Part shown: piece after piece, positions 31,966-48,039 of the stretch
How positions within the stretch are numbered: the first letter of the stretch is position 1
Layout of the letters: each line of letters begins with the position of its first letter
DNA from: Modestobacter sp. Leaf380
Lineage (GTDB): Bacteria > Actinomycetota > Actinomycetes > Mycobacteriales > Geodermatophilaceae
Direction of reading: 5' to 3'
Length of the DNA: 64,000 nucleotides
NCBI RefSeq assembly: GCF_001424485.1
Contig: NZ_LMQC01000019.1
Span: 1-64,000, forward strand
Translations under genes and position numbers: made by a program
The notes under the pieces: generated by a model
Seen by the model: only the letters and a program-made list of their open reading frames with translations
The model's database searches: none
Told to the model about the DNA's origin: nothing

Positions 31966-32802
31966 TCAGGTCGCCAGGGCGAGGGTGCTGCGGGCCTGCC
32001 GGGCGACGGCCTCGTCCAGCAGCCTCCCGTCGGCGCCGACCGCCACCCCGGGGGACGCCGCGAGCCGGGCGAGCACGTCGCGGGCAGCGGCGACGTCGTC
32101 GGCGCTGGGCCGGCAGACCCGTTCGACGACGGCGACCTGCGCCGGGTGGATGCAGGACCGGCCGCGGAACCCGAGCGCCAGCAGCGCCCGGGTCTGCGCC
32201 TCGAAGGCGTCGAGGTCGCGGAACTCGGTGGACACCGCGGCCGGCGGCGGCGCGATGCCGGCGGCGGCCGAGGCGAGGACGACGGTGCTGCGGGCCAGCA
32301 GCAGCTCGGCGCCGTCCGGGCCGGGGGTGACGCCGAGGTCGGCGGCCAGGTCGACCTCGCCCAGCTGCAGGCAGCGCACCCGGGGGCCGGCGGCCAGCGC
32401 GGGCGCGGCGAGCACGCCGGCTGCGCTCTCCACCAGCGGGCTGACGCCCAGGCTGCACGGGGCGCGGCCGGTGGCGGCCTCGGCGGCGGACAGCTGGTCG
32501 TGCACCCGGTCCAGCAGCGCCGGGGACCCGGCCTTGGGCAGCACCACGCCGGTCAGGCGCGGGGTCCGGGCGACGGCGTCGACGTCGTCCCGGCCGCGGC
32601 CGCCGGTGTTGACCCGCACCCAGACCTCGCCGTCCCCGGCCTCGCCGCGCAGCCACTCGACGACGGCGTCGCGGGCGGCGTCCTTGCCGGCGGGCGGGAC
32701 GGCGTCCTCCAGGTCCAGGACGACGGCGGCCCCGGTGCGCACGGCCTTGTCGAACCGGTCGGGCCGGTCGCCGGGCACGTAGAGCCAGCTGCGGACGCTC
32801 AC
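31966..32802 (-). CDS. HpcH/HpaI (CitE-like) acyl-CoA lyase
   Basis: 278 residues from GTG 32802, overlapping the upstream stop by four bases. RSWLYVPGDRPDRFDKA, VVLDLEDAVPPAGKD, VWVRVNTGG, LQLGEVDLAADLG and FRGRSCIHPAQV are the CitE/malyl-CoA-lyase motifs, including the Glu and Asp that hold magnesium. It lacks partners of citrate lyase, so it is a stand-alone lyase for a 3-hydroxyacyl-CoA such as citramalyl-, malyl- or beta-methylmalyl-CoA. It is the last gene of a four-gene operon with MaoC, CaiB and an acyl-CoA dehydrogenase, which points to a C5 diacid. Confidence 0.9.
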   Translation of the reverse strand: MSVRSWLYVPGDRPDRFDKAVRTGAAVVLDLEDAVPPAGKDAARDAVVEWLRGEAGDGEVWVRVNTGGRGRDDVDAVARTPRLTGVVLPKAGSPALLDRVHDQLSAAEAATGRAPCSLGVSPLVESAAGVLAAPALAAGPRVRCLQLGEVDLAADLGVTPGPDGAELLLARSTVVLASAAAGIAPPPAAVSTEFRDLDAFEAQTRALLALGFRGRSCIHPAQVAVVERVCRPSADDVAAARDVLARLAASPGVAVGADGRLLDEAVARQARSTLALAT

Positions 32803-33962
32803 CCGACGACGGTGGTGCCGGCGACCAGGGACTTGGCGATGACGGTGCGCAGCACGTCGTTGGTGCCCTCGCCGATGGCCATCAGCGGGGCATCGCGGTA
32901 GAGCCGCTCGACGACGAACTCGGTGGAGTAGCCGTAGCCGCCGTGGATCCGCATGGCCTCCAGCGACAACGCCAACGCGGTCTCCGAGGCGAACACCTTG
33001 GCCATGCCGGACTCGGCGTCCACCCGCTGGCCGGCGTCGGCCTTGGAGGCGGCCCAGTAGGTGAGCAGCCGGGCGGCCTGCAGCTGGGTGGCCATCTCGG
33101 CGAGCTTGAGCGCGATGGCCTGGAACTCCGCGATCGGGTGGCCGAACGCCTCGCGCTCGCCGGCGTACTTCAGCGCGGCGTCGTAGGCGGCCTGCGCGAC
33201 GCCGACCGAGCGGCCGGCGATGTTGAGCCGGCCGATCTCCAGGCCGCTCAAGGCCTGCTTCATGCCCAGGCCCTCGACGCCGCCGAGCAGGTCGGTGGCC
33301 GGCACCCGGACGTCGACCAGGGAGATCTCGCAGGACTCGGTGCCCTTGTAGCCGAGCTTGCCCAGGTCCCGGCTGACCTCGAAGCCCTCCGACGACGTGT
33401 CCACCAGCAGCAGGGACATGCCGCGGTGCCGGGGCTCGGCCGCCGGGTCGGTCTTCACCAGGACGGGCAGCACGTCGGCGTGCCGGGCGTTGGTGATCCA
33501 GGTCTTGGTGCCGTTGACGACGTAGTGGTCGCCGTCCAGCACCGCCGTCGTCGCGATGCCCTGCAGGTCGGTGCCGGCCCCGGGCTCGGTGAGGCCGACG
33601 CCGGTGCGCCACTCGCCGGTGGCCAGCTTGGGCAGGAAGCGCTGCTTCTGCGCCGGCGTCCCGTGCTTGGCGATCATCCAGGCCGACAGGCCGTGGCTGC
33701 CGAGGATGCCGGCGATGCCCATCCAGCCGCGGCTGATCTCCTCGTAGACGAGGGTGAAGCTGACCATGTCCAGCGCCAGGCCGCCGAACTCCTCGGGCGT
33801 GGTCAGGCCGAACAGGCCCATCGCCTTGAGGTGGTCGACGATCTCGGTCGGGTAGCGGCCGGTGCGCTCCCACTCCGAGGCCACCGGCACGATCTCGCGG
33901 TCGACGAAGCGGCGCAGCGCCTGCTGGAAGTCGCGCTGCTCCTCGTTGAGGGTGAAGTCCAC
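32799..33962 (-). CDS. acyl-CoA dehydrogenase of the C5-diacid operon
   Basis: 387 residues from GTG 33962. Motifs: VGLTEPGAGTDLQGIATTAV (flavin region), VNGTKTWITNARHADV, IGRLNIAGRSVGVAQAAYDAAL, RIHGGYGYSTEF and MAIGEGTNDVLRTVIAK with the catalytic Glu. It is a soluble flavoprotein that desaturates an acyl-CoA. Tight coupling to CaiB and CitE genes makes methylsuccinyl-CoA or another short branched diacyl-CoA a reasonable substrate. One base separates it from the CaiB gene, and it overlaps CitE. Confidence 0.92.
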   Translation of the reverse strand: MDFTLNEEQRDFQQALRRFVDREIVPVASEWERTGRYPTEIVDHLKAMGLFGLTTPEEFGGLALDMVSFTLVYEEISRGWMGIAGILGSHGLSAWMIAKHGTPAQKQRFLPKLATGEWRTGVGLTEPGAGTDLQGIATTAVLDGDHYVVNGTKTWITNARHADVLPVLVKTDPAAEPRHRGMSLLLVDTSSEGFEVSRDLGKLGYKGTESCEISLVDVRVPATDLLGGVEGLGMKQALSGLEIGRLNIAGRSVGVAQAAYDAALKYAGEREAFGHPIAEFQAIALKLAEMATQLQAARLLTYWAASKADAGQRVDAESGMAKVFASETALALSLEAMRIHGGYGYSTEFVVERLYRDAPLMAIGEGTNDVLRTVIAKSLVAGTTVVG

Positions 33963-33963
33963 G

Positions 33964-35169
33964 TCAGCTCCTGGTCTCGCCGAAGGCGCCCGCTGCTTCG
34001 AGCGCAGCCACCTTCTCGGGTGGGTAGCCGAGCAGGTCGGCGGTGATCTCGTGCTGGTGCTCGTTGCGGTGCGGGGCGCGGCGGTGCTCGGTGTGCTGCT
34101 CGCCGAAGCGGACCGGACTGCCGACCTGCCGGACGGTGCCCCAGTGCGGGTGCTCGGTCTCCAGCAGCAGCCCGCGGGCGGCGGCCTGCGGGTCGGCCAG
34201 GGCCTGGTGGACGTCGTTGACCGGCGACGACGGCACCCCGGCGGCGGCCAGCAGCGCCAGCCAGTGGGCCACCGGGTGCTTCGCGAACTCCCCGCGCAGC
34301 TCGGGCAGCAGCACGGCGCGGTGCACGTCGCGGGCGGTGAAGCTGGCGAACCTCTCGTCGTCCCCCAGGTCGGGTCGGCCGAGGACGGCGACCAGCCGCT
34401 GCCAGAACTTCTCCTTGGCACACCCCACGACCAGCCAGCCGTCGCTGGCCGCGAAGGCCTGGAACGGGACGAGCGAGGGGTGCGCGGAGTCGACGGTGCG
34501 GACCGGTTCGTACCCGGCGTTGAGCGCCCAGGTGGCCGGGTAGGTCAGCAGCGACATGGCGGTGTCGTAGAGGGAGACGTCGCAGTCGCCACCGACGCCG
34601 TCCCGCCTGGCGGCGTGCAGGCCGGCCATCAGCGAGAGCGCGGCGACGAAGCCGCTGGAGAAGTCGACCAGGCTCAGCCCGGTCTTGGTGGGCGGGCCGC
34701 CGGGGTCACCGGTGAGGCTCATCCAGCCGGCGATGCCCTGCAGCACGTAGTCGTAGCCGGGTTCGGCGGCGCGCGGGCCGGTCATGCCGAAGCCGGTGAG
34801 GCTGCAGCACACGATGGCGGGGTTGAGGTGGGCGAGGTCGGCGTACCGGATGCCGATCTTGGCCGGCACGTCGCCGCGCAGGTTGGACCAGACGGCGTCG
34901 CTGGTGCGCACCAGGTCCTCGAACACCTCGCGGCCGGCCGGGGTGGAGATGTCGAGGCTGAGGCTCTGCTTGTTGCGGTTGAACGTCTCGAAGAACAGCG
35001 ACTCCTCGCCGGCTGCGTAGGGCGGGACGTAGCGGCCGATGTCCCCGCCGGTGCGCGGGTCCTCGATCTTGATGACCTGGGCGCCGAGATCGGCCAGGTG
35101 CACGCTCCCGAACGGGCCGGCGCCGTACTGCTCCAGGGCGACGATCCGGACGTCCTCCAGCGGCCTCAT
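33964..35169 (-). CDS. CaiB/BaiF family CoA transferase
   Basis: 401 residues from ATG 35169, overlapping the MaoC stop (ATGA). It begins with the family pattern LEDVRIVALEQYGAGPFGSVHLADLGAQVIKIEDP, has FFETFNRNKQSLSLDIST, then CSLTGFGMTGP, and GYDYVLQGIAGWMSLTGDPGG with the nucleophilic Asp region. These enzymes move CoA between carboxylic acids, often from succinyl-CoA. In this operon it would activate the diacid substrate; itaconate, mesaconate and methylsuccinate are candidates. Confidence 0.92.
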   Translation of the reverse strand: MRPLEDVRIVALEQYGAGPFGSVHLADLGAQVIKIEDPRTGGDIGRYVPPYAAGEESLFFETFNRNKQSLSLDISTPAGREVFEDLVRTSDAVWSNLRGDVPAKIGIRYADLAHLNPAIVCCSLTGFGMTGPRAAEPGYDYVLQGIAGWMSLTGDPGGPPTKTGLSLVDFSSGFVAALSLMAGLHAARRDGVGGDCDVSLYDTAMSLLTYPATWALNAGYEPVRTVDSAHPSLVPFQAFAASDGWLVVGCAKEKFWQRLVAVLGRPDLGDDERFASFTARDVHRAVLLPELRGEFAKHPVAHWLALLAAAGVPSSPVNDVHQALADPQAAARGLLLETEHPHWGTVRQVGSPVRFGEQHTEHRRAPHRNEHQHEITADLLGYPPEKVAALEAAGAFGETRS

Positions 35170-35690
35170 GCGGTCAGCGGCCCGGTCTTGGCCTCGGGGA
35201 AGTGGCCCTGCCCGATCCCCGACTCCCTCGTGGCGACCATGACCGAGCGCGTGAACGAGATGCACTCGTCGCCCTCGGAGGTCAGCCCGCGGGTCACCAT
35301 CGACACGATGCCCGCGTACGGCCGGGACTTGCTGGCCCGCAGCCCGGTGCACAGGCTCTCCGCGTAGAGGGTGTCGCCGACGTAGACCGGGTGGGTCAGC
35401 CGGACGTCGGTCATCTCCAGGTTCGCCACCGCGTTCTGGCTCATGTCCAGGACGCTCAGGCCCAGCGTCAGGGCGATCGTCAGCCCCGAGTTCACGATGA
35501 CGCGGCCGCCGGTGATGGGGTTCTGGGCGGCGAGGTGCGCGTTGACGTGCTGCTGGTTGGTGTTCATCGTCAGCATCGTCAGCCAGGTGTTGTCGGCCTC
35601 GGAGATCGTGCGGCCGAGCGGGTGCTGGTAGACGTCGCCCACGACGTAGTCCTCGAAGTACCGACCCAGGACGGCTGGGTGTGTGGCCAT
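35166..35690 (-). CDS. MaoC-type acyl-CoA dehydratase
   Basis: 174 residues from ATG 35690, with GGGAGG upstream. The hot-dog fold shows as GRYFEDYVVGDVYQHPLGRTISEADNTWLTML followed by TNQQHVNAHLAAQNPITGGRVIVNSG. The D/N-x-x-x-x-H hydratase motif is in HVNAHLA and the preceding residues. This subgroup resembles mesaconyl-CoA and itaconyl-CoA hydratases. It opens the operon and probably hydrates the unsaturated C5 acyl-CoA before the CitE-like enzyme cleaves it. Confidence 0.88.
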   Translation of the reverse strand: MATHPAVLGRYFEDYVVGDVYQHPLGRTISEADNTWLTMLTMNTNQQHVNAHLAAQNPITGGRVIVNSGLTIALTLGLSVLDMSQNAVANLEMTDVRLTHPVYVGDTLYAESLCTGLRASKSRPYAGIVSMVTRGLTSEGDECISFTRSVMVATRESGIGQGHFPEAKTGPLTA

Positions 35691-35716: not shown

Positions 35717-35734
35717 GTAAACGTCTGATGATTA
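35717..35734. promoter_or_regulatory. control region between MaoC operon and amidase
   Basis: The 76-bp gap between the divergent starts contains TAAACGTCTGATGATTA. The 11-mer TAAACGTCTGA recurs exactly at 44536-44546 upstream of the PrpD-like gene, and CGTCTGA occurs again at 43265 upstream of the WrbA-like gene. It may be a GT-N3-AT/AC half-operator for a GntR/FCD regulator such as the one at 42481. Confidence 0.35.
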
Positions 35735-35766: not shown

Positions 35767-36972
35767 ATGGACGACGCCGGCACCAACTCCGTGATCCGCC
35801 AGGTGGACCGGCCTGTTCCCGGCCCCGGCCCGCTGTCCGGGGTGCGACTGGGGGTCAAGGACAACATCGACGTCGCCGGGGGTCCGACGACGTGCGCGTC
35901 GGCGTTCTTCGCCGATCGGGTGCCCCTCGAGGACGCCGAGGTGGTGCGCCGGCTGACCAGCGCGGGGGCCGACCTGGTGGCGACGCTGAACCTGAGTGAG
36001 TTCGCCGTCGGGGTGACCAACCAGAACTCCGCCGCCGGCCCGTGCCGGAACCCGTGGGACCCGTCCCGGGTGCCCGGCGGCTCGTCGGGCGGCTCCGGCG
36101 CGGCGGTGGCGGCCGGCATCGTCGACCTGGCGCTGGGCACCGACACCGGCGGCTCGATCCGGCTGCCCGCGTCGGCGTGCGGGGTGGTGGGGCTGCGGCC
36201 GACGCACGGCTCGATCCCACTGGACGGCGTCTTCCCGGTCTGCGACGACGTCGACACCGTGGGCCCGCTGGCCCGGGACGTCGCGCTGGTCGCCCGGGCC
36301 CAGCGGGTGCTCACCGGCTCCACCGCACCGGTGCCCGCAGCCGCACTCCCCCGCCGCATCGGCCTCCCGGTCCAGCTGCTGACCGACGTGGACCCCGGCG
36401 TGCGCGGTGTGGTGGACACGGCCCTGGAGGTCTTCGCGGTGGCCGGGTCGACGGTGGTGCCGGTGCAGGTCGAGGGCCTGCTCGACGCGCAGGACATCGT
36501 CTACACGCTGGTCTACGCCGACCTGGCTCGGACCCACGCTGCCCGTCTCGACGCGGAGCCCGAGCGCTTCCACCCGGACACGCTGGTCCGGGTCGGGCTG
36601 GGCCGGTCGATCACCGCCGACGAGCGGGCGGCCGCCGTCCTCGCCCGGCAGGCGCTGCAGGGCCGGATCTCGGCTGCGTTGGACGGTGTCGACCTGCTGC
36701 TGACGCCCACGATGCCGGTGGACGTGCCCCGCGCGGACCCGGACGACGTGGTGCGGGTGTCCCGGCGGCTCGGGCAGCTCACCTACCCGTGGTCGCTGCA
36801 CGCCGGGCCGACGCTGGCCCTGCCGGTGGGGAGGCACCCGCGGTCCGGGATGCCGGTGGGGGTGCAGCTGACCGGTCCCGTGGACGGCGAGGACTCGCTC
36901 TTCGCGGCCGGGCTGTGGTTCCAGGAGCGGACGGCGTGGCACACCGCGCGGCCGCCGGTGGTCAGCGGCTGA
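35767..36972 (+). CDS. amidase signature family hydrolase
   Basis: 401 residues from ATG 35767 with GGAGG upstream. The Ser-cisSer-Lys triad is intact: Lys31 in GVKDNID, Ser106 in PGGSSGGSG and nucleophile Ser130 in TDTGGSIRLP. Length is slightly short for the family (usually 450-500), with a brief C-terminal half ending LPVGRHPRSGMPVGVQL. It hydrolyses an amide to acid plus ammonia. Being divergent from the MaoC-CaiB-ACAD-CitE operon, it could release the acid that this operon consumes. The 3' end overlaps the truncated alpha/beta hydrolase. Confidence 0.9.
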   Translation: MDDAGTNSVIRQVDRPVPGPGPLSGVRLGVKDNIDVAGGPTTCASAFFADRVPLEDAEVVRRLTSAGADLVATLNLSEFAVGVTNQNSAAGPCRNPWDPSRVPGGSSGGSGAAVAAGIVDLALGTDTGGSIRLPASACGVVGLRPTHGSIPLDGVFPVCDDVDTVGPLARDVALVARAQRVLTGSTAPVPAAALPRRIGLPVQLLTDVDPGVRGVVDTALEVFAVAGSTVVPVQVEGLLDAQDIVYTLVYADLARTHAARLDAEPERFHPDTLVRVGLGRSITADERAAAVLARQALQGRISAALDGVDLLLTPTMPVDVPRADPDDVVRVSRRLGQLTYPWSLHAGPTLALPVGRHPRSGMPVGVQLTGPVDGEDSLFAAGLWFQERTAWHTARPPVVSG

Positions 36973-38428: not shown

Positions 38429-38485
38429 AAAGCTGCCGTCGGCATGAACACCGAGGCTGACCCGAAAGAGGCGGCCGAAACCCGC

Positions 38486-38512: not shown

Positions 38513-38592
38513 CCGGGGCGCCAGCCACGCGCAGCACCACCATATTCGGCCAGCCCGTGGCAGCTCAGTGGCGCCATGAGGTCGGCCGTCGA

Positions 38593-41436
38593 CTAAATCG
38601 CGGACGCTACTTTCGTTGCGGGCGACTGCCGGACCGTCTTTCTCGGCTGGGTTTCCTCGACGCCGGACCCACTTCGTAGGCCACGCCGTCCGCCCTTCGC
38701 TTGGCCTGAAGCGACAGCCCAAGCAGTCAGAATTCCGGTTCGCCACGCCCACGTCTGATCGGACCAACTTGCCGACCCGTACCGAGACAGGACCTCCCGC
38801 TGCTGCTCGCTCGAAAGCGGGGTCTCTGCAGCAGCGTCCAGCAGACCACGAACATTGGGCTTTGAGAGGCAAACGACAGCGACATCTCGGTCCTGCAGTG
38901 GATTCGCCTGAGCCAGGATAGCTCGTCCTTGCGCCGTGGCTCGAACTACCGCTCCATCGTCCTCAATGAGGTCTAATGACCGCGCGTCCCGCATCACCGA
39001 ACCGACCTGGCTGGGCCCCAATCGCTCCCGCGCGACTGCTCGAGGGATTCCCCCGTCGCGGAGCATCTCTAGAAGCTCCCGAACCTTTCCCGGTCGTACG
39101 CTTGGAACGAATACATTAGTTGCGAAATTTCCCAGATTGAAAGCTCGACGAAGCACAAGCTCATCGGAAGCCGACTCCCTTGGCTTAACGTGCTCTCCCT
39201 CGACATCAACCATTCCGGCATATCTGAGCCAGTTAATAAGAATACTGGCATAGCTAGTCCAGGTGTTGTCGCTAGCCTCGATGTGCGGCAGTTCCGACCG
39301 AAGCAACAACGTTACGTCGCGGAGGTCGACACTGTCTGATCGACTGATGAGGTCAAGCACACTCGACACCAGAGCGTTCGCTCTAAGCGCTTGGCGCAAG
39401 AAAGATCCCATCTGATCAGCCTCAAGCGCCGCCTCTGCTTCGGAAGACAGCCGAACCTTACCTACCTCTGGCGCAAGAATCCCGAGGAGTCGGAGTTCTC
39501 GAAGTTTGTTATAGGTGGCGGTGGCGTTGCCGCCGAGTCGGCGCGCAAACGTAGCCGTGTCCGCCCCCCCTTCCTCTACGATTGAGGTCAGGAGACCTAG
39601 AGCTGGCCCAGGCGTTACACGGAACACATACCGAGCCTGGAACGGAATTCGTCCAGTCAGAAGATAAGACTTAAAGACATCGTTATATGTGTCATAAACA
39701 TCACCGCTCAAGCGGAGCAACTTTCGACCAAGGAAGTCGTTCAGTTTTACGGTAAGACGCTTAAAGCTCACCTCACCTTCGAGTCGGCGGCTCAACTCTC
39801 CGGCATTGTTCGGAAGATGTGCGGCGAGTACGCGGAGTAGCGCCTTATCTGCCTCGTCTAGGCCAGCGAGATCCTCATCGAAAAGATCTTCGGCGCGAAG
39901 TCCTCCCCGAGTCAATTCGGTTTGAGTGGCACCAACGCGCGACATGCTCAATACATGCGAACAGACTCTCTTGAGCAGCCAAGGGAAACCCGCAGAAAAC
40001 GTTAGAAGAGCTTCTGCCAGCTCCTTCGATAGTTTGGCGCCCATCTCAGTTGACAACCGATCCAGGAGAGCTTGCTCCTCGGGAGGTGTGAAGTCCACGA
40101 GGTGCACGGGCAAACTCAACTCATTGAGCCGTGCCAAGTCGACGGCCGCACCTTCATCATACGTAGCTGCTAGATCGTTCTTCCGAGCAAGAACCCAAAC
40201 AAGAGGAAGCGCTCTGTCTGTTGTAGCCGCGACGAGGTCCAAAAAGGTACGAAACACATCTGGACGACCCAGCAGAGCCTCAAACTGATCAATCTGCACT
40301 AGGGCAACGCGGGACCTTAGAGCGAGTTCCTGTGCCGCTTTCTCTAGCCCCGTCAAGGCATCTTCCTGACGGCTAGGCACCGGGAGTTCGACTTCGAAGG
40401 CATCCTGGACGGTTCGCAACAGCGCAGCTACGACCAGCCGAAGATCGCCGGGCGCAAGCAAGTTTCGCCCGTCCACCGTAGCGCTGACCTGAGTGGTCTC
40501 GTCGGAGGAGGCACCAATTTTGAGAAGCAGTGAGCTCTTCCCAACCCCAGACCGGCTTAATATCTGGATAGCCCTGAGGGTTGTGGCGCCCTCGGCCACG
40601 GTTTGGATGAATTTTTGTACAGCGGCGATGGCTGTGTCGCGGCCCACGAAGCAGTCGGGCGGGCTCGGGAACTTGTAGTCGAACCAGCCCGCACCCGCTA
40701 AGACACCAGGCAGCGATGGCGTGCTGATGTCTGGTGCCGGCATCTCGTCAGGCGGTAGGTAGGTCAAGTTCGAAAGGTCGACAAGCTGTCGACGGAGGCG
40801 ACGCACATCGTCATTGGTCAAGACGCACCGATGGCCGGCGAGATCGAAGCCCACGAAGTGAGTGGCAGCTGAGGCAGCACTCGGCCCCGCGGACACGATA
40901 ATGATGTCGCCGCGTCTGCCAAGAACAAGCCACGAGTCGTTGGGGTGCAACCGCGTGTCGGCGGCGAGCGTTCTCTTAATGGACTCTTCCGATGCGCAAT
41001 GGCCGCGCTCGCTCAAGAATTGGGGAATTTTTTCACCGACGAGTGTCGTGAAAGTCATTCGGAGGCCACTCAAGACTTCAGGGGTGAGATCTCGAAGAAA
41101 ATCCTCCCCGTCGGGCGTCAACCGACTGGTGCTGATGAATAAACCATCGAGCCCATTCTGGCTCGAATGCGCGAGGGGAACGAGCTTACCGAAAAATGCC
41201 GTGACCTCCTTCCCGGAGATCGCGGCCTCGTGCGCTTTGGCTTCACCGTTGAGCTGGCGACCGTTGAGGCTCGATCGCGCTTCAACGTCATACTCGAGGC
41301 TAGAACGCTTGACCCGCAAAACAACGTCGCGGTGACCCGTGTACTCGACCAAGCGCTTCGCGAATTGCTCAAAGATGTGCCCTTTTGTCTGGGGACTTAT
41401 CTCGTCCTCAGTCGGATCGAAGAAGCTGATCTGCAT
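38593..41436 (-). CDS. Mrr-like nuclease fused to STAND-type ATPase, candidate defence protein
   Basis: 947 residues from ATG 41436. Residues 1-130 look like a PD-(D/E)xK restriction-endonuclease domain: Glu23 in HIFEQF, Asp50 in LEYDVEA, then Glu65-Ala-Lys67 in LNGEAKA, followed by GKLVPLAH and GLFISTSRLT. Residues about 260-520 form a P-loop NTPase: CFVGRDTAIAAVQKF, Walker A SRSGVGKSS (294-302, Lys300), Walker B VQIDQFE (Asp383, Glu386). The remainder has several winged-helix-like units (FARRLGGNATATYNKLRELRLLG, GPSQVGSVMRDARSLDLIED). The layout, effector nuclease plus STAND ATPase plus C-terminal sensor, resembles Avs-like defence proteins, but no exact family is recognised. The gene is AT-richer, uses rare codons such as TTA, and is bracketed by 27-bp repeats. 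Confidence 0.75.
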   Translation of the reverse strand: MQISFFDPTEDEISPQTKGHIFEQFAKRLVEYTGHRDVVLRVKRSSLEYDVEARSSLNGRQLNGEAKAHEAAISGKEVTAFFGKLVPLAHSSQNGLDGLFISTSRLTPDGEDFLRDLTPEVLSGLRMTFTTLVGEKIPQFLSERGHCASEESIKRTLAADTRLHPNDSWLVLGRRGDIIIVSAGPSAASAATHFVGFDLAGHRCVLTNDDVRRLRRQLVDLSNLTYLPPDEMPAPDISTPSLPGVLAGAGWFDYKFPSPPDCFVGRDTAIAAVQKFIQTVAEGATTLRAIQILSRSGVGKSSLLLKIGASSDETTQVSATVDGRNLLAPGDLRLVVAALLRTVQDAFEVELPVPSRQEDALTGLEKAAQELALRSRVALVQIDQFEALLGRPDVFRTFLDLVAATTDRALPLVWVLARKNDLAATYDEGAAVDLARLNELSLPVHLVDFTPPEEQALLDRLSTEMGAKLSKELAEALLTFSAGFPWLLKRVCSHVLSMSRVGATQTELTRGGLRAEDLFDEDLAGLDEADKALLRVLAAHLPNNAGELSRRLEGEVSFKRLTVKLNDFLGRKLLRLSGDVYDTYNDVFKSYLLTGRIPFQARYVFRVTPGPALGLLTSIVEEGGADTATFARRLGGNATATYNKLRELRLLGILAPEVGKVRLSSEAEAALEADQMGSFLRQALRANALVSSVLDLISRSDSVDLRDVTLLLRSELPHIEASDNTWTSYASILINWLRYAGMVDVEGEHVKPRESASDELVLRRAFNLGNFATNVFVPSVRPGKVRELLEMLRDGGIPRAVARERLGPSQVGSVMRDARSLDLIEDDGAVVRATAQGRAILAQANPLQDRDVAVVCLSKPNVRGLLDAAAETPLSSEQQREVLSRYGSASWSDQTWAWRTGILTAWAVASGQAKGGRRGLRSGSGVEETQPRKTVRQSPATKVASAI

Positions 41437-41846
41437 GAGTCCCCCGCGTCATCGCCCCTGGATGCCGTCCAGCCACCCCGTCTAGCAGTGGGCTCGGCCT
41501 ACCTCACACAGGACGGTAACGGATCTCGAACGTCCGACCGTGGGTCGAGCACTTCGGGTGTCCGGAGACGGCCGTCTGTCGGGACGGAAATGCCTCGCGC
41601 CGACGCGCTGACCTGCAGCGTTGTCCAGGTGTCCGATAGACCCGTCCGATTTGGTTTCCCGCAAAGGGGCGTCATACGGCACAGGTTGAGGCGCTGTTGT
41701 CAGCCCCTGCCCTCGTCGGCATGATGCAACGCCGAGCGCTTGTCGATGGTCTCGCGCTGGGTCCTGTGGATCACCGGACGGCGCCGAGATCGCCGACCCG
41801 CATGGGCTCTGCCCATCAGTCCCACCCCAGCGACGCACCTGCTTCG
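41437..41846. other. 410-bp intergenic region in the island
   Basis: No convincing gene is found here. It holds the presumed promoter of the nuclease-ATPase gene, copy 4 of the 27-bp repeat, and a partly similar TGTCCGATAGACCCGTCCG stretch near 41630. Base composition rises towards genome-like values on the right. Short open frames look random. Confidence 0.6.
41559..41585 (+). repeat. 27-bp island repeat, copy 4 (diverged)
   Basis: TGTCCGGAGA followed by CGGCCGTCTGTCGGGAC; about 21 of 27 bases match copy 1. It lies 123 bases upstream of the nuclease-ATPase start, marking the other flank of that gene. Confidence 0.55.
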
Positions 41847-42176
41847 TCACAGCCCCAGGTACGTGCGCAGCTGGACCGCCAGCCGCTCCACCTCGCTGGG
41901 CACCAAGCGTCCGCGCTGGCGCACCAGCGCCGCCCGGTCCACGGGTTGGAGCGCCGTGACGTCCGCGTAGGACTGGTCGTAGCGGGTCAGTCCTGCGTCG
42001 GCGGTGAGGGGGATGTGGGTGGCCGGCGGACCGGGTGTGCCGGTGACCGGGACGACTGCCACGTGCCCGAGTCGGCTGTTGAGGGCGTTGACGCTCAGGA
42101 TGACGGCCGGGTGCAGGCCGAAGTCCGGGAAGTCGACGTCCCAGATCTCTCCGCGAAAGGGCTCAGGAAGGGGCAC
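41847..42176 (-). CDS. MazF/PemK-like toxin
   Basis: 109 residues from GTG 42176 (TTG 42185 is possible). The MazF fold opens RGEIWDVDFPDFGLHPAVILSVNALN, followed by LGHVAVVPVTG and HIPLTADAGLTRYDQSYAD, and ends ALQPVDRAALVRQRGRL. The R-G-E-I-W start and the Q-P/V-D-R segment match the endoribonuclease family, though the strand-2 Ser/Thr region is somewhat divergent. It overlaps the upstream antitoxin gene by 14 bases, the standard toxin-antitoxin layout. Confidence 0.82.
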   Translation of the reverse strand: MPLPEPFRGEIWDVDFPDFGLHPAVILSVNALNSRLGHVAVVPVTGTPGPPATHIPLTADAGLTRYDQSYADVTALQPVDRAALVRQRGRLVPSEVERLAVQLRTYLGL

Positions 42177-42435
42177 CGGTGTCAACGACCTCGTCGCGCC
42201 GTAGGGCGGGGCGGACGCCGATCGGCAATGGAGCGGGCTGGTCGCCGTAGAAGTCCTCCACGCTGCGGGCCATCCGCTCCTCGGCGGCCCGCTGGTGCAG
42301 CAGTTCGAGCGCGGTCCGCACGATCTCGGTGCGCCCCTTGAGCCCCAGGACCGCAGAGTCCTCCCGGAGTGCGGCTGCGAGGTCGGAGTCGATGCGGGCC
42401 TGCCAGACCTCGGTTGGCCCCGGTGAAAGCGTCAT
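42163..42435 (-). CDS. ribbon-helix-helix antitoxin
   Basis: 90 residues from ATG 42435. WQARIDSDLAAALREDSAVLG and KGRTEIVRTALELLHQRAAEER fit a ribbon-helix-helix DNA-binding domain; the C-terminal tail (MARSVEDFYGDQPAPLPIG) would wrap the toxin. It should neutralise the MazF-like protein and repress the operon. Translation is probably coupled to the toxin through the overlap. A palindrome lies directly upstream of its start. Confidence 0.82.
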   Translation of the reverse strand: MTLSPGPTEVWQARIDSDLAAALREDSAVLGLKGRTEIVRTALELLHQRAAEERMARSVEDFYGDQPAPLPIGVRPALRRDEVVDTGAPS

Positions 42436-42445
42436 GCGAATACAG

Positions 42446-42480: not shown

Positions 42481-43197
42481 TCAGCCCCGACTCAACCGGT
42501 CCATCTGCCGATAGGCCCCGGTCAGGTGGTCCAGGTGCCGCCGCATGGCCACGACTGCCCCGTCCGCATCCCGCGCTGCGACGAGATCGTGCAGCTCCGC
42601 GTGGTCGTCGGCGACGCACGCCCAGAACCCGTCCGGCGCGTGATCCCGCCCGAACCGCGTCGACAGCACCCGGAACAGCGGCGCGGTGATGACCTCCAGC
42701 AGCGGGTTGCCGGTGGCGCGCAGCAGGACCAGGTGGAAGTCCTGGTTGGCCGAGTAGGTCTCCGGGCCGGACGCCCGCTGGGGGTCGAACTCGGCGCGGC
42801 GGAGGTCCTCGAGGTGCTCGTCGGTGCGGTGCAGCGCGGCCTCGCCGGCGGCGGGGACCTCCAGCAGGTGCCGGGTGGTCATCAGCTGCTCCACCGTCAC
42901 CCGCTCGGCGGCCGCCATCAGCGCCACGCCGGTCTCCAGGTGGGCCGAGAGGTGCGCCGGCGTCGGCACGCTGACGAAACTCCCGCCGGACACCCCGCGC
43001 GTGGTCTCGATCAGGTGCTCGCTGGTCAGCGACCGCAGCGCCTCGCGCACCGTGCTGCGCCCGACCCCGAACTCGGCGGACAGCTCCTGCTCGTTGGGCA
43101 GCCGGTCCCCCGGGGTCAGCTCGCCCGAGACGATCCGGGCGCGGATCCGCCCGGCCAGCACGGCGTAGGCGGGCCCTGCCGGCTCGGCGCTGGTCAC
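42481..43197 (-). CDS. GntR-family regulator with FCD domain
   Basis: 238 residues from GTG 43197 (GTG 43203 is possible). The winged helix is YAVLAGRIRARIVSGELTPGDRLPNEQELSAEFGVGRSTVREALRSL (about residues 12-58). The C-terminal FCD domain shows the acid and histidine metal-binding helices (NQDFHLVLLRATGNPLL, DDHAELHDLVAARDADGAVVAMRRHLDHL). FCD regulators repress catabolic operons and release DNA when an organic acid binds. The gene is divergent from the WrbA-like gene and is the likely local controller of the 43310-48039 cluster. Confidence 0.93.
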   Translation of the reverse strand: MTSAEPAGPAYAVLAGRIRARIVSGELTPGDRLPNEQELSAEFGVGRSTVREALRSLTSEHLIETTRGVSGGSFVSVPTPAHLSAHLETGVALMAAAERVTVEQLMTTRHLLEVPAAGEAALHRTDEHLEDLRRAEFDPQRASGPETYSANQDFHLVLLRATGNPLLEVITAPLFRVLSTRFGRDHAPDGFWACVADDHAELHDLVAARDADGAVVAMRRHLDHLTGAYRQMDRLSRG

Positions 43198-43264
43198 CGG
43201 CACAGTCTGCCAGCGGTCCCCCGGTTCACACGGTGTTGACAGCCGAGGCGTTGACGTCGGCAAT

Positions 43265-43272
43265 CGTCTGAC
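43265..43272. promoter_or_regulatory. candidate GntR/FCD half-operator
   Basis: CGTCTGAC lies in the GntR-WrbA intergenic region 38 bases before the WrbA start. GT-N3-AC is the core of FadR/FCD operators. The same word recurs at 44540-44547, and CGTCTGAT occurs at 35722-35729, each upstream of a catabolic gene. Confidence 0.4.
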
Positions 43273-43309
43273 ACTTGGATGAGGACCCCCGACCCGAGGA
43301 GTCCTCCCG

Positions 43310-43927
43310 GTGCCCGCCACCCCCCGCATCGCCGTCGTCTTCTACTCCTCCACCGGCAACCTGGCCGCCATGGCCGAGGCCATCGGGAAGGGCGCTGAAT
43401 CCCACGGCGCCGAGGTCCGGCTGCGGATCGTCCCCGAGCTGGCTCCGCCCGCGGCCATCGCGGCCAACCCGAAGTGGCAGGCCTTCGTCGACGCCGCGCG
43501 CTACGAGACCGCCACCACCGACGACCTCGACTGGGCCACCGGCTTCGCACTCGGCAGCCCCACCCGCTTCGGCCTCCCCGCCGGTCAGCTCAAGGAGTTC
43601 CTGGACACCACCGGCGGCCTCTGGGCCCAGGGCAAGCTCGCCGACAAGGTGGGAACGGCGTTCACCAGCGCCTCCACCGGCCACGGCGGCCTCGAGTCCA
43701 CGATCCTCGCGATGAACAACGTGCTCTACCACTGGGGCTCGCTGGTCCTCCCCCTCGGCTACGGCGAGCGGCACCTGATGAAGGAGTCCGGCAACCCCTA
43801 CGGCGGCTCCTTCGTCTCCCGCTCCGGCGCCGAACCCGACGCCGTCGCCCTGGAGGCCTGCCGGCTGCAGGGTGTCCGGCTCGCCCGGTTCGCCGGCTTC
43901 GTCGCCGACGGGCTGGCGGGGGCATGA
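43310..43927 (+). CDS. WrbA-like NAD(P)H:quinone oxidoreductase
   Basis: 205 residues from GTG 43310 with GAGGAG upstream. The flavodoxin fold opens IAVVFYSSTGNLAAMAEAI (FMN phosphate loop STGN), and GFALGSPTRFGLPAGQLKEFLDTTGGLW and TSASTGHGGLESTILAMNNV are typical of WrbA. It reduces quinones by two electrons with NAD(P)H. In this cluster it may supply reduced flavin or detoxify a quinone product for the RutA-like monooxygenase. The stop overlaps the next start (ATGA). Confidence 0.9.
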   Translation: MPATPRIAVVFYSSTGNLAAMAEAIGKGAESHGAEVRLRIVPELAPPAAIAANPKWQAFVDAARYETATTDDLDWATGFALGSPTRFGLPAGQLKEFLDTTGGLWAQGKLADKVGTAFTSASTGHGGLESTILAMNNVLYHWGSLVLPLGYGERHLMKESGNPYGGSFVSRSGAEPDAVALEACRLQGVRLARFAGFVADGLAGA

Positions 43928-44538
43928 GCAGCGGCGAGGCGGTCCGGGTCGGGATGGGGCGCCTCGCCACCACCGAGCGGCCCGGGCTCGTGCTGGTCGA
44001 CTGCCAGCGGCTCTTCACCCTGGGCGACGACCCCGCGGTCGCGGCCGCCGCGGAGGGCTGCGGCCGGGCCGCTGCGGCCGCCCGGGAGGCCGGCGTCCCG
44101 GTCGTCTGGCTCCGGGTCCTCTTCGACGACGACGACCAGCTCGGCCCGGTCTGGACGGCGAAGGCCCCCGCCCTCAAGCAGCTGCGCCCCGGCGCCGAGC
44201 TGTCCGGCTTCGACGACCGCGTCGGGTACGTCGAGGGCGAGCCCGTCGTCACCAAGACCCGTGCCTCGGGCTTCGTCCGCACCGACCTCGACGACCTGCT
44301 GCACGACCTGGACGTGCACGCCCTCGCCGTCGCCGGGTTCACCACCGCCGGCTGCGTGCGCGCCACCGTCGTGGACGCCGCCTCGCTGGACTACGCCCCC
44401 GTCGTCCTCGCCGACGCCGTCGCCGACCGGTCCGCGGCCATCCACGACGCCGCGCTGGTCGACCTCGACGCCCGGTACGCCGACGTCGTCCCCGACGGTG
44501 CTGCCTGGTTCCAGGCGCTCAGGGGTTCCCAGAGCTAA
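43924..44538 (+). CDS. isochorismatase-family cysteine hydrolase
   Basis: 204 residues from ATG 43924. The catalytic triad is present: Asp in LVLVDCQRLF, Lys in VVTKTRASGF and Cys in FTTAGCVRATVVDAA. This is the branch containing N-carbamoylsarcosine amidase, maleamate amidase and ureidoacrylate hydrolase. It therefore probably cleaves an amide or carbamate produced by ring opening. It is not close to Escherichia coli RutB by eye despite the RutA-like gene nearby. Co-translated with the WrbA-like gene. Confidence 0.88.
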   Translation: MSSGEAVRVGMGRLATTERPGLVLVDCQRLFTLGDDPAVAAAAEGCGRAAAAAREAGVPVVWLRVLFDDDDQLGPVWTAKAPALKQLRPGAELSGFDDRVGYVEGEPVVTKTRASGFVRTDLDDLLHDLDVHALAVAGFTTAGCVRATVVDAASLDYAPVVLADAVADRSAAIHDAALVDLDARYADVVPDGAAWFQALRGSQS

Positions 44539-44539
44539 A

Positions 44540-44547
44540 CGTCTGAC
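44540..44547. promoter_or_regulatory. candidate GntR/FCD half-operator upstream of PrpD-like gene
   Basis: CTAAACGTCTGACCTATCG contains CGTCTGAC, 41 bases upstream of the MmgE/PrpD start and just after the preceding stop. The 11-mer TAAACGTCTGA is shared with the MaoC-amidase gap at 35718-35728. Confidence 0.4.
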
Positions 44548-44588
44548 CTATCGTCGCCGGTGATCGCCGTCACAGACCAGGAGGACCC

Positions 44589-45971
44589 GTGAGCAGCTCC
44601 CCCAGCCTCGCCCGCCAGGTCGCCGACGTGGTCACCGGCCTCGACCTCGACGACGTCCCCGACGCCGTCCAGCAGCGCGCCCGGCACCTCGTCCTGGACG
44701 CCGTCGGCCTGGCCTTCGCCGCCACCGCGCACCCCTTCCCCGACGTCGCCGCCCAGGCCCTGGGCACCCTCGGCTCCGGCGACCACCCGGTGCTGGGCAC
44801 GAAGACCCGGCTCGCCCCGCGCGACGCCGCCGTCCTCAACGGGGTGCTGGTGCACGGCCTGGACTTCGACGACACCCACATCGGCGCCATCACCCACGTG
44901 TCCGCCTCCGCCCTGCCCGCCGCGATCTCCGCCGCCGTTGCCGCCGACGCCAGCACCCGCGAGCTGCTGCTGGGCTACGTGCTCGGCGTCGAGGTCGCCG
45001 CCCGCGTCGGCCTGGCCGGTGCCGGCGCCTTCCACGACCTGGGCTTCCACCCGACCGCGCTGGCCGGGGCCTTCGGGTCCGCCGTCGCCGCCGGCAGGGT
45101 CGCCGGGCTGGACGCCGACCAGCTCGCCGCCGCCCAGGGCGTCGTCGGGTCGATGGCCGCCGGCCTGCTGGAGTTCCTCGAGGACGGCTCCTGGACCAAG
45201 CGCCTGCACCCCGGCTGGGCCGCCCAGTGCGGGCTCACCGCCGCCGCGTTCGCCAAGGCCGGCTGGTCCGGGCCGGCCGCGGTCTACGAGGGCCGCTTCG
45301 GCCTCTTCAACACCCACCTCGCCGGCCGCGAGGTGCACCCCGAGCTGGTCGCCGAGGGCCTGGGCACCCGGTGGGAGACTGCGCAGACCGCGGTCAAGCC
45401 CTACCCGGTCTGCCACTTCGCGCACGCCTTCGCCGACGCCGTCCTCACCCTGCGCACCGAGCACGACCTGCGCCCGGACGACGTCGCCAGCATCCGGTGC
45501 GCCATCCACCCGGTGCCCGGCAAGGTCGTCTGCGAGCCCGCCGCCGCCAAGTGGGAACCCAGAGACGAGTACGACGCCAAGTTCTCGCTGCCCTACGTCG
45601 TGGCCACCACCCTCGCCCGCGGCCGGTTCACCCTCGCCGAGCTCTCGGACGACGCCCTGCGCGCCCCCGAGGTGCTCGCCCTGGCCCGCAAGGTCGAGGT
45701 CGTGCCGGACGACGAGAGCGCCTTCCCGAAGGCCTACTCCGGCTGGGTGCAGATCACCACGACCGACGGCCGGGTGCTCACCCACCGCGAGCAGGTCAAC
45801 CGCGGGCACGCCGACCGCCCGCTCACCGACGCCGACGTCGTCACCAAGTTCCGGGGGTCCATGGCCCCCGTCGCCGACGAGAGCACGACCGAACGGGTGC
45901 TGGACGCCGTCCTCTCCCTCGGCGAGGACCGCCCCGCCCGCGCGTTCGCCGAGGCCTGCGCCGCCGGCTGA
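44589..45971 (+). CDS. MmgE/PrpD family protein
   Basis: 460 residues from GTG 44589 with AGGAGG upstream. ARHLVLDAVGLAFAATAHP, VLVHGLDFDDTHIGAITHVSASALPAAI, GWAAQCGLTAAAFAKAGWSGP and VKPYPVCHFAHAFADAVL are the signature segments of the family, which includes 2-methylcitrate dehydratase, cis-aconitate decarboxylase and immunomodulatory relatives. The enzyme would dehydrate or decarboxylate a hydroxy-acid. With an isocitrate-lyase-family gene two genes on, it may act on a 2-methylcitrate-like product, but the standard methylcitrate synthase is absent. Confidence 0.9.
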   Translation: MSSSPSLARQVADVVTGLDLDDVPDAVQQRARHLVLDAVGLAFAATAHPFPDVAAQALGTLGSGDHPVLGTKTRLAPRDAAVLNGVLVHGLDFDDTHIGAITHVSASALPAAISAAVAADASTRELLLGYVLGVEVAARVGLAGAGAFHDLGFHPTALAGAFGSAVAAGRVAGLDADQLAAAQGVVGSMAAGLLEFLEDGSWTKRLHPGWAAQCGLTAAAFAKAGWSGPAAVYEGRFGLFNTHLAGREVHPELVAEGLGTRWETAQTAVKPYPVCHFAHAFADAVLTLRTEHDLRPDDVASIRCAIHPVPGKVVCEPAAAKWEPRDEYDAKFSLPYVVATTLARGRFTLAELSDDALRAPEVLALARKVEVVPDDESAFPKAYSGWVQITTTDGRVLTHREQVNRGHADRPLTDADVVTKFRGSMAPVADESTTERVLDAVLSLGEDRPARAFAEACAAG

Positions 45972-46028
45972 CCCCCACAGACCCCCGGCAACGACGCCGG
46001 AAACCCCCTTCTAGCCACAGGAGCAGGC

Positions 46029-47081
46029 ATGGACTTCGGCGTCTTCATCCCGATCGGCAACAACGGCTGGTTGATCAGCGAGAACGCACCGCAGTACATG
46101 CCGAGCTTCGAGCTGAACAAGCGGATCGTCCAGGAGGCCGAGGCGCAGGACTTCGCCTTCGCGCTGTCGATGATCAAGCTGCGCGGGTTCGGTGGGAAGA
46201 CCGAGTTCTGGGACCACAACCTGGAGTCCTTCACCCTGATGGCGGGCCTCGCTGCCGTCACCGAGAAGATCAAGCTGTACGCGTCGACCGCCGTCCTCAC
46301 CCTGCCGCCGGCACTGGTCGCCCGGATGGCCACCACCATCGACTCCATCGCCCCGGGCCGGTTCGGCGTCAACATCGTGTCCGGCTGGGCGTCGGGCGAG
46401 TACTCGCAGATGGGCCTGTGGCCCGGCGACCAGTACTTCGGCGAGCGCTACGACTACTCCACCGAGTACGTGCAGGTGCTGCGGGCGCTGTGGGAGACCG
46501 GCACCTGCGACCTGGACGGGAAGTACTTCCAGATGACGGACTGCAAGCTGTCCCCACAGCCCAGTGCGCCCATCGACATCGTGTGCGCCGGACAGTCCGA
46601 GCGCGGGATGCGGTTCTGCGCCGAGCACGGCGACTACAACTTCATCCTCTCCCCGGGCGTGAACACCCCCGAGACCTACCGGGAGCCCACCGAGAAGCTG
46701 GCCGCCGCGGCCGCCGCCAGCGGCCGGGACGTCGGCTCGCTGCCGCTGTTCATGGCGATCATGGCCGACACCGACGAGGAGGCGCAGGCCAAGTGGAAGA
46801 GCTACCACGACGGTGCTGACCTGGGCGCCCTCGGCTACATGAGCGACGAGGGGTTCAAGGACACCTCCGCCGACTCCGGCGGCACCGCGCGGACGATCAA
46901 CCTGCCCGAGGGGGCGGTCAACTTCAACATGGCCACCCTGGTCGGCAGCCCGGAGACCGTCGCCCGGCAGATCGACGAGGTCGCCAAGATGCCCGGGGTC
47001 AAGGGGATGATGTTCACCTTCGACGACTTCGAGAAGGGCGTGAAGACCTTCGGTGAGAAGGTCCGGCCCCTGCTCGGCTGA
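46029..47081 (+). CDS. RutA-like flavin-dependent monooxygenase
   Basis: 350 residues from ATG 46029. It is strikingly similar to Rut[69 protein letters not shown] and [10 protein letters not shown] are all as in the pyrimidine monooxygenase, within the luciferase-like TIM barrel. RutA opens the uracil ring at N3-C4 through a flavin-N5 oxygen adduct. The other rut genes are missing, so the target is probably another N-heterocycle or amide. AGGAG lies just upstream; a hairpin follows. Confidence 0.92.
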
Positions 47082-47090
47082 CGCTCCGCT

Positions 47091-47135
47091 GGTGGAGTGG
47101 GAGGGGCGCGGTTCTCGCGCCCCTCCCGCTCCACC
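47091..47135. repeat. long hairpin after the RutA-like gene (pair member 1)
   Basis: GGTGGAGTGGGAGGGGCGCG (47091-47110) and CGCGCCCCTCCCGCTCCACC (47116-47135) pair over 20 bp with one G-T pair around a 5-base loop. A related hairpin lies at 48048-48085. It separates the RutA-like gene from the next gene and may be an attenuating terminator. Confidence 0.75.
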
Positions 47136-47154
47136 GACACTCGAGAGGACCCCC

Positions 47155-48039
47155 GTGAGCTCGTTCGTCGCCCCCCGCCCGAACCCGCGTGCCCGGCTGC
47201 GTGAGCTGCTGGCAGCCCCCACGCCGCTCATCGCGCCGGGCGCCTACGACGCGTTGAGCGCCCGGCTGGTGCAGCAGGCCGGTTTCGACGTCGTCTACAT
47301 GACCGGCTTCGGGACGTCGGCGTCCCTGCTCGGGCGCCCGGACGTCGGACTGCTCGGCGGGGCCGAGATGACCGACAACGCCCGCCGGATGGCCCAGGCG
47401 GTCGACGTCCCGCTCATCGCCGACGCCGACACCGGCTACGGCAACGCGCTCAACGTCGTCCGCACGGTGCGGGAGTACGAGCAGGCCGGCATCGCCGGGC
47501 TGCAGCTGGAGGACCAGGTCTCGCCCAAGCGCTGCGGGCACATGGCCGGCAAGGCCGTCATCGACGTCGAGGAGGCCGTGGCCAAGGTGCGGGCCGCCGT
47601 CGCCGCGCGCACCGACCCCGACCTGGTGGTCATCGCCCGCACCGACGTCGCCCAGGTCGAGGGCACCCGCGCCGCGATCGACCGGGCGCTGCGCTTCGCC
47701 GACGCCGGCGCCGACGTGCTCTTCGTCGAGGCCCCGCGGACGGCGGAGGACGTCGAGCTGGTCGCCACCGAGCTGGCCGGCCACCACCTGCTCTTCAACT
47801 GGGTCGAGGGCGGCCAGACCGAGGGCCTCACCATGGACCGGGTCGCCGAACTGGGGTTCTCCCTGGTGCTCTTCCCGATCAGCACGCTGCTGGCCGCCAC
47901 GCACGCCATGCAGGCGGCGCTGTCGACGCTGAAGCAGACGTCGTCCACCGCCGGGGCGCCGATGGGCGACTTCGACGGGTTCCTGCAGACCATCGGCCTG
48001 CCCGAGCTCCGCGCCGACGAGGCCCGTTTCGCGACCTGA
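47155..48039 (+). CDS. isocitrate lyase/PEP mutase family enzyme
   Basis: 294 residues from GTG 47155. LIAPGAYDALSARLVQQAGFDVVYMTGFG, LIADADTGYGNALNV, LEDQVSPKRCGHMAGK (the K-R-C-G-H active-site loop) and VIARTDVAQ define the family. The Cys in the loop indicates C-C lyase chemistry as in 2-methylisocitrate lyase, dimethylmalate lyase or oxaloacetate hydrolase, not PEP mutase. It probably cleaves the acid made by the PrpD-like protein, releasing pyruvate or a similar product. It ends 47 bases before a convergent small gene. Confidence 0.9.
   Translation: MSSFVAPRPNPRARLRELLAAPTPLIAPGAYDALSARLVQQAGFDVVYMTGFGTSASLLGRPDVGLLGGAEMTDNARRMAQAVDVPLIADADTGYGNALNVVRTVREYEQAGIAGLQLEDQVSPKRCGHMAGKAVIDVEEAVAKVRAAVAARTDPDLVVIARTDVAQVEGTRAAIDRALRFADAGADVLFVEAPRTAEDVELVATELAGHHLLFNWVEGGQTEGLTMDRVAELGFSLVLFPISTLLAATHAMQAALSTLKQTSSTAGAPMGDFDGFLQTIGLPELRADEARFAT

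Follow-up and report, generated by a model that had tools for sequence, protein, structure and literature searches.

What does a RutA-type flavin monooxygenase do when its gene lies outside a rut operon? Such an enzyme is encoded in the first 64,000 nucleotides of contig NZ_LMQC01000019.1 of Modestobacter sp. Leaf380 (the window; all coordinates are those of its forward strand). A first-pass annotation, made from the sequence alone, had grouped six genes at 42481-48039 into a new N-heterocycle degradation pathway. All six are present: a GntR/FCD regulator, a WrbA-type protein, an isochorismatase-fold hydrolase, an MmgE/PrpD-family protein, the RutA-like protein and a lyase of the phosphoenolpyruvate (PEP) mutase/isocitrate lyase family (PEPM lyase). 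The gene group is real, but its boundaries were drawn too narrowly, and a coenzyme A (CoA) module at 31966-35690 and an amidase gene appear to belong to it. The annotation caught half of the system and missed the CoA module, the amidase and an operator-like site common to both halves. In the reading we favour, to which we give an even chance, the RutA-type enzyme takes the ring-opening slot of one GntR-controlled regulon that would convert a cyclic imide or amide into a methylsuccinate-type dicarboxylate. The genes, their families, their linkage, the common operator-like site and the presence of HyuA-HyuB in place of RutA in related clusters were computed directly. Klenkia is used below as the genus label for the eight near-complete genomes compared, the source genome counted in.

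The RutA-type enzyme and the rut genes

The RutA-type protein scored 576.7 bits against TIGR03612 (cut-off 498.3) and is 60.6% identical to RutA of the Escherichia coli Rut pathway. Passages of PMC7662398 and PMC8234197 describe an O2-reactivity motif of RutA-type enzymes in which position 105 may be T or S. All 41 clade rows, duplicates counted, keep L65, N134, V136 and F224 of this motif and have Ser at T105; the Ala of the motif lay outside the comparison. The annotation as a very RutA-like flavin enzyme was therefore sound, and because the O2-reactivity residues compared are kept, the proposed N5-oxygen chemistry is plausible; ring opening itself is backed indirectly by the HyuA-HyuB proteins that seem to occupy the corresponding slot in related clusters. 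Among the 80 loci listed, 32 encode a protein at least 80% identical to this enzyme and 48 one that is at most 69% identical, with a sharp break in between. The group at 80% and above forms a single clade (clade A; 34 distinct sequences, support 0.966). Substrate prediction from residues was set aside, since without coordinates there was no way to relate the clade-specific positions to the pocket; in the passages of PMC7662398 at hand, the pyrimidine is contacted by few side chains. Public records label relatives of the enzyme "pyrimidine utilization protein A", and the plasmid records (50 of 64 listed) are mostly annotated as rutA.

The E. coli proteins RutB to RutG were searched against the window at E<0.01. 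RutC to RutG gave no match there, which confirms that rutCDEFG are missing beside the RutA-like gene; RutC, RutD, RutE and RutF were searched in the window and not genome-wide. The only RutB match in the window was the isochorismatase gene itself, and it was weak (37.0 bits, 31% identity). Its product was rejected as a RutB, since it scored 49.6 bits against the RutB model (cut-off 377.95) and RutB was far from it in the structure comparison. No protein in the whole genome exceeded the RutB cut-off, and the best one (130.8 bits) is encoded on another contig. Whether the other rut genes lie elsewhere in the genome thus has a mixed answer: there is no RutB above the cut-off, but three Xan_ur_permease proteins are present, so a RutG-like permease is possible. 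Unlike the E. coli pathway, the system described here has a RutA of its own clade with Ser at T105, no RutB over the cut-off and, among the window genes, no rutC to rutG nearby.

The CoA module, the operator-like site and their conservation

A second gene group lies 9-14 kb upstream of RutA and encodes an HpcH-type lyase, an acyl-CoA dehydrogenase, a CaiB-type CoA-transferase, a MaoC hydratase and a divergent amidase. Five families (CaiB, MaoC, HpcH, acyl-CoA dehydrogenase and MmgE/PrpD) thus co-occur in the window, in two groups that far apart. Passages of PMC12290011 place a CoA-transferase, a hydratase, a lyase, an acyl-CoA dehydrogenase and an MmgE/PrpD isomerase in one itaconate/methylsuccinate pathway, encoded in Cupriavidus and Pseudomonas by ict, ich, ccl, mcd and mmgE. 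The same source, as far as its excerpts go, assigns 96.2% of the methylsuccinate isomerases to Pseudomonadota, takes a hidden Markov model score over 550 as its isomerase criterion, and says in its Discussion that the environmental source of methylsuccinate was unclear until recently, naming itaconate reduction. Unlike the Cupriavidus/Pseudomonas cluster, the genes described here are actinobacterial, fall below the equivalog cut-offs and are joined to RutA or HyuA-HyuB, an amidase and a GntR regulator. Since the same five families are found, the dicarboxylate left after nitrogen release would most likely be methylsuccinate or a relative, and the substrate of the ring opener would thus be a cyclic amide or imide with the same skeleton. 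In one related locus (L196), PrpD has a MatC-type dicarboxylate carrier as its neighbour, which fits a dicarboxylate intermediate.

The first-pass annotation had assigned a dehydration to the PrpD protein, and this step was not upheld. As a 2-methylcitrate dehydratase the protein scored 60.3 against a cut-off of 950 (NF042438) and 28.8 against 458 (TIGR02330), and the solved structures closest to it are those of IDS epimerase and cis-aconitate decarboxylase. It is more likely an isomerase than a dehydratase, because the five families match the proteobacterial itaconate/methylsuccinate cluster and so suggest a methylsuccinate-isomerase-like role. The WrbA-type protein passed the cut-offs of both NF002999 (153.3 over 141 bits) and TIGR01755 (144.1 over 132.5). 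For the isochorismatase-fold hydrolase the nearest solved structures are 26st and 3ot4/3uao, the latter presumably the maleamate amidohydrolase NicF, and its aligned Asp, Lys and Cys are kept, as judged by eye from the alignment with them. The PEPM lyase did not reach the cut-off of the methylisocitrate lyase PrpB (TIGR02317, 261.3 against 354.4). Its nearest solved structure is 2,3-dimethylmalate lyase (3fa3, 201 bits), with which it shares the KRCGH motif, but it has NWVEGG where the fungal enzyme has NMVEHG. C-C cleavage by this lyase, as first proposed, may still occur; the better-supported candidate for that step is the HpcH lyase in the CoA module.

A near-palindromic motif close to TAAACGTCTGACNTTT was found at three places: the MaoC/amidase gap, the GntR/WrbA gap and 5' of PrpD. 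Twelve distinct Klenkia sites, among them one that is clearly spurious (score 9.0), went into the scoring matrix. These three were the only sites of at least 20 bits in the 64 kb, and they lie at three promoters of both gene groups; the next independent site scored 11.3 bits. In 33 clade-A loci there were 55 sites of at least 20 bits, 54 of which lie no more than 300 bp 5' of a called gene; triplet-shuffled loci (5 x 32) had none. Of the 55, 12 belong to five Klenkia loci overlapping the set on which the matrix was trained. The remaining 43 are spread over 28 loci, in which the 300-bp zones 5' of called genes take up 24% of all positions. In five Pseudonocardiales loci (L039, L061, L065, L068, L069) the site is immediately 5' of RutA. 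The GntR protein would be the one that binds this predicted site.

We compared 36 clade-A loci (the 32 listed ones, the window and three further loci), several of which are truncated at a contig end or at the edge of the 10-kb flank; two pieces of the window itself (L051, L052) were left out of the locus listing and the neighbour search. At the thresholds used, the genes most often near clade-A RutA encode PrpD (33 loci), GntR (30), the amidase (27), CaiB (26) and the acyl-CoA dehydrogenase (26), followed by MaoC (24), a luciferase-like monooxygenase-class oxidoreductase (24), an aromatic-acid-type major facilitator superfamily transporter (11), the isochorismatase (9), PEPM (9), WrbA (8) and HpcH (6); HyuA was near none. 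The arrangement recurs in Pseudonocardia and Actinomycetospora, and gene order is unlike between Klenkia/Modestobacter and Pseudonocardiales. The presence of PrpD near clade-A RutA in 33 of 36 loci, with two gene orders among them, shows that the grouping is not due to chance. CaiB and RutA, 6.5-18.6 kb apart, are linked in all eight near-complete Klenkia genomes; a ninth genome (73% complete) has no such CaiB, and RutA was not searched there. Both gene groups fall within 10 kb in a Modestobacter metagenome-assembled genome (MAG; L058). The proposal of a RutA-type enzyme in a catabolic cluster outside a rut operon held up, and the cluster is conserved; the assignment of a dehydration to PrpD did not hold up. 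Among the papers listed by a literature search limited to open PubMed Central papers, none describes this gene set.

HyuA-HyuB in place of RutA and the rival explanations

RutA and the hydantoinase/oxoprolinase-type HyuA-HyuB both break ring C(=O)-N bonds in known reactions, although HyuA-HyuB belong to an unrelated protein family and require ATP. We surveyed 298 genomes of the order. Clade-A RutA is present in nine of them (eight Klenkia and G267), and orthologues of PrpD, CaiB and PEPM are present in 13 (E<=1e-110), 29 (E<=1e-120) and 34 (E<=1e-90), respectively. Among the PrpD genomes without clade-A RutA, three (G125, G184, G259) have HyuA in the cluster and one (G222) has neither. Outside the RutA genomes, HyuA-HyuB and an amidase lie within 9 kb of CaiB in 8 of 21 CaiB-orthologue places, whereas RutA is in none (the centre of L196, a 33% CaiB, was excluded, and a 31% HyuA match in L223 and a 37% amidase match in L212 were not counted). 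The HyuA proteins of these eight places are 73-100% identical to that of L197, and HyuA and HyuB were checked with Pfam. A second HyuA type lies 10-15 kb from CaiB, beyond the 9-kb limit, in two genomes (G193, G268). In five loci (L204, L206, L208, L209, L211) the neighbours are close to those of Klenkia: GntR 66-71%, the amidase beside HyuA-HyuB 56-61%, the acyl-CoA dehydrogenase 78-80%, MaoC 76-78% and CaiB 73-76% identical. All eight HyuA-HyuB/CaiB loci carry the operator-like site (21.4-26.9 bits), mostly 5' of MaoC, and weaker sites (16-17 bits) lie near HyuA in the five loci just named. Neither HyuA type was found at E<=1e-200 in any of the nine clade-A RutA genomes, the source genome included. 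Thus HyuA-HyuB of the ATP-dependent hydantoinase/oxoprolinase family, which includes caprolactamase, stand in the ring opener's place in related clusters, and the swap supports ring opening because HyuA-HyuB and RutA share this type of bond cleavage.

The PEPM lyase and the N-carbamoylsarcosine-amidohydrolase-like protein form a second recurring set, with RutA or HyuA-HyuB. At 25 PEPM places, 12 have HyuA-HyuB and the isochorismatase (11 of these genomes are in Klenkia's family), one has a RutA-like protein (46%) with the isochorismatase, and 12 have neither. None of 12 HyuA-HyuB/PEPM loci and none of 18 second PEPM loci has the operator-like site (best 14.8 bits). Klenkia seems to join the CoA set and the PEPM/hydrolase set. 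The creatinine/N-methylhydantoin route combines HyuA-HyuB with N-carbamoylsarcosine amidohydrolase, and the Klenkia genes likewise pair a ring opener with an N-carbamoylsarcosine-amidohydrolase-like protein, but here the opener is RutA and a C-C lyase and the CoA module are present.

From these genes we infer every reaction and the substrate given below, as well as the single pathway for all of them. WrbA would probably supply FMNH2 (reduced flavin mononucleotide) to the RutA-type flavoenzyme, which would use O2 to cleave a C(=O)-N bond in the ring of a cyclic imide or amide; in related clusters HyuA-HyuB would presumably carry out the same step with ATP. Nitrogen would be released by the amidase, the N-carbamoylsarcosine-amidohydrolase-like protein or both. 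The 2-substituted dicarboxylate set free in this way, which is most likely methylsuccinate or closely related to it, would be isomerised by the MmgE/PrpD protein, activated by CaiB, oxidised by the acyl-CoA dehydrogenase, hydrated by MaoC and cleaved by HpcH to pyruvate and acetyl-CoA or equivalents, while the PEPM lyase may cleave a free-acid intermediate. A more specific version is tentative and rather improbable: that the O2- and FMN-dependent RutA-type enzyme replaced the ATP-dependent HyuA-HyuB in two actinobacterial lineages within one GntR regulon and so created an aerobic route that takes a C5-branched cyclic imide via methylsuccinate to central metabolism, with flavin-N5-oxygen amide cleavage outside pyrimidines. 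The imide would be of the methyl-substituted succinimide or maleimide type and might be tetrapyrrole-derived. If this is true, flavin-N5-oxygen amide cleavage is not limited to uracil and thymine and is an alternative to ATP-driven ring hydrolysis, methylsuccinate has a new source, and such a pathway may hide under the label "pyrimidine utilization protein A". The proposal involves three short predicted operators and a small number of enzymes, and can be tested directly. Two other routes, from citrazinate via cis-aconitate to itaconate and from hematinic acid or methylethylmaleimide to glutarate, are chemically coherent but were not adopted, as no genomic evidence was found for them; literature searches on maleimides and dimethylmaleate returned nothing relevant.

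Several results weigh against the favoured reading. CaiB, MaoC, HpcH and the acyl-CoA dehydrogenase are under every NCBIfam cut-off listed, and the scores in Table 1 place neither MaoC among the Ich nor HpcH among the Ccl equivalogs. The two-base mechanism of methylsuccinate isomerase includes a second catalytic Tyr; a Tyr of IDS epimerase (assumed catalytic) aligns with a His of the PrpD-like protein that is kept in its relatives, in a comparison made on IDS epimerase and not on the methylsuccinate isomerase itself. The linkage also has exceptions. Saccharopolyspora (L157, L080) has the CoA module without RutA, and its RutA is on a separate contig, a lone locus with no operator site; L064, L072 and L080 have no site. 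Actinomycetospora L067/G306 has the amidase together with RutA and GntR, yet PrpD is absent at E<=1e-60, and in L072/G319 (a MAG with a cut contig) RutA stands alone, with no PrpD at the same threshold. The PEPM genes of Pseudonocardiales lie elsewhere and lack the operator. All training sites of the operator matrix come from Klenkia. In 13 of the 21 CaiB places, some of which are on short contigs, there is no RutA and no counted HyuA within 9 kb. Because eight of the nine RutA genomes belong to one genus, the mutual absence of RutA and HyuA is statistically weak and suggestive only. The comparison gives the swap no direction, and it falls short of proof for ring opening because the relatives of HyuA-HyuB reportedly include carboxylases.

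Some of these exceptions would be expected if two independent pathways shared a neighbourhood and a regulator, with the CoA module serving methylsuccinate or itaconate, a separate RutA route and no metabolite passing between them. The modules are apart in Saccharopolyspora and L067, and the 13 CaiB-orthologue places without an opener point the same way. Against this stand the operator-like site, which is common to three Klenkia promoters and lies directly 5' of RutA in the five Pseudonocardiales loci, and the linkage kept in two lineages despite different gene order. We regard two pathways as a minor possibility.

An ordinary pathway for uracil/thymine or a substituted pyrimidine such as orotate, in which RutA opens the ring, an N-carbamoyl hydrolase replaces RutB and the PEP-mutase-type lyase takes the keto acid, is unlikely. 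It would agree with a RutA over the equivalog cut-off, a hydrolase nearest to N-carbamoylsarcosine amidohydrolase, the uracil/xanthine-family permeases elsewhere in the genome, and the compact RutA-isochorismatase-PEPM sets of Bradyrhizobium BTAi1 and of four second loci of Actinomycetospora and Pseudonocardia, but it leaves the CoA module without a role, RutB and the other Rut proteins are missing at the scopes given above, and the transporter of the Pseudonocardia cluster examined is nearest to the aromatic acid/H+ type (below that model's cut-off). The linear route proposed at first (RutA, isochorismatase, (de)hydration by PrpD and CoA-independent cleavage of a C-C bond in a free acid by the PEP-mutase-type lyase) is very unlikely. 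Klenkia and the Modestobacter MAG do have the four genes together in one stretch, and the lyase is nearest to 2,3-dimethylmalate lyase, but the PEPM gene of Pseudonocardiales lies outside the cluster and lacks the operator, while the CoA genes are inside.

Gene map, neighbouring genes and RutA relatives

The features of the two gene groups are collected in Table 1. Gene calls in the compared loci were made by script, and some starts are misplaced and some frames spurious.

Table 1. Genes, predicted operators and hairpin of the two gene groups in the window
Feature	Coordinates	Strand	Evidence
HpcH/CitE-type lyase (Ccl/RipC-like)	31966..32802	-	PF03328; best NCBIfam RipC_Ccl 155.5 bits, below cut-off 375
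Acyl-CoA dehydrogenase, candidate methylsuccinyl-CoA dehydrogenase	32799..33962	-	PF00441/02771/02770; nearest solved structure FadE3 4iv6
CaiB-type CoA-transferase (Ict-like)	33964..35169	-	PF02515; best NCBIfam succinate-glutarate CoA-transferase 266.4, below cut-off 750
MaoC hydratase (Ich/RipB-like)	35166..35690	-	PF19315 mesaconyl-CoA hydratase; best NCBIfam RipB_Ich 144.4, below cut-off 340
Predicted GntR operator, MaoC/amidase gap	35718..35734	+	26.9 bits; kept in other Klenkia
Amidase-signature amidase, divergent from CoA module	35767..36972	+	PF01425, 283 bits; start read from DNA
GntR/FCD regulator, start GTG (43203 possible too)	42481..43197	-	PF00392, PF07729
Predicted operator, GntR/WrbA gap	43261..43277	+	26.3 bits; kept in other Klenkia
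WrbA-type NAD(P)H:quinone oxidoreductase, candidate FMN reductase	43310..43927	+	NF002999, 153.3 bits
Isochorismatase-fold cysteine hydrolase, N-carbamoylsarcosine-amidohydrolase-like	43924..44538	+	PF00857
Predicted operator 5' of MmgE/PrpD	44536..44552	+	25.9 bits; kept in other Klenkia
MmgE/PrpD-family protein, candidate 2-alkylsuccinate isomerase	44589..45971	+	PF03972, PF19305
RutA-type flavin monooxygenase	46029..47081	+	TIGR03612 above cut-off; own clade
GC-rich hairpin, RutA/PEPM gap	47082..47154	+	-51.8 kcal/mol, z -5.7; 0/200 shuffles fold as well
PEP-mutase/isocitrate lyase-family (PEPM) lyase, 2,3-dimethylmalate-lyase-like	47155..48039	+	PF13714; KRCGH motif kept

The hairpin between RutA and PEPM has no U-run and is perhaps a stabiliser or attenuator; other Klenkia show similar hairpins of different sequence (judged by eye, not folded). 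The gene groups are separated by 36973-42440, which contains an Mrr-nuclease/STAND NTPase fusion (38593-41436; PF04471, PF20703) and a MazF/RHH toxin-antitoxin pair (41847-42435). PADLOC gave no match to the Mrr/STAND fusion. This region is perhaps a defence-island insertion point.

In E. coli K-12 (L134), wrbA lies 0.8 kb past the rutG end of the rut operon, which parallels WrbA near RutA here. On a Thioclava plasmid (L153), amidases, a flavin reductase and a 3,4-dihydroxy-2-butanone-4-phosphate synthase are all encoded no further than 7 kb from a RutA-type gene, as if the FMN supply were co-encoded. The 48 listed loci whose proteins are 64-69% identical (L086-L133) seem to be mostly outside rut operons. 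RutB, RutC and RutD occur together in two of them (L118, L126), each beside another RutA copy. A 32% RutB match is present in L095, and some others have homologues of RutE or RutF. Their neighbours encode amidases and isochorismatases and, in the loci read by eye, nitrilases and sugar-type ABC transporters. Thus these relatives probably belong to further non-uracil pathways.

A RutA-like protein of 45-46% identity adjoins an isochorismatase and PEPM in the second loci of Pseudonocardiales and in G267 (L139, L141, L142, L143, L205), and the locus of Bradyrhizobium BTAi1 (L097) is a three-gene RutA-isochorismatase-PEPM set. There was no second Bac_luciferase match on the window's own contig. In two other Klenkia (L155, L156), luciferase-like proteins (30-31% identical to RutA) are encoded downstream of the cluster, near what appear by eye to be genes for RibBA, a flavin reductase and an aldehyde dehydrogenase.

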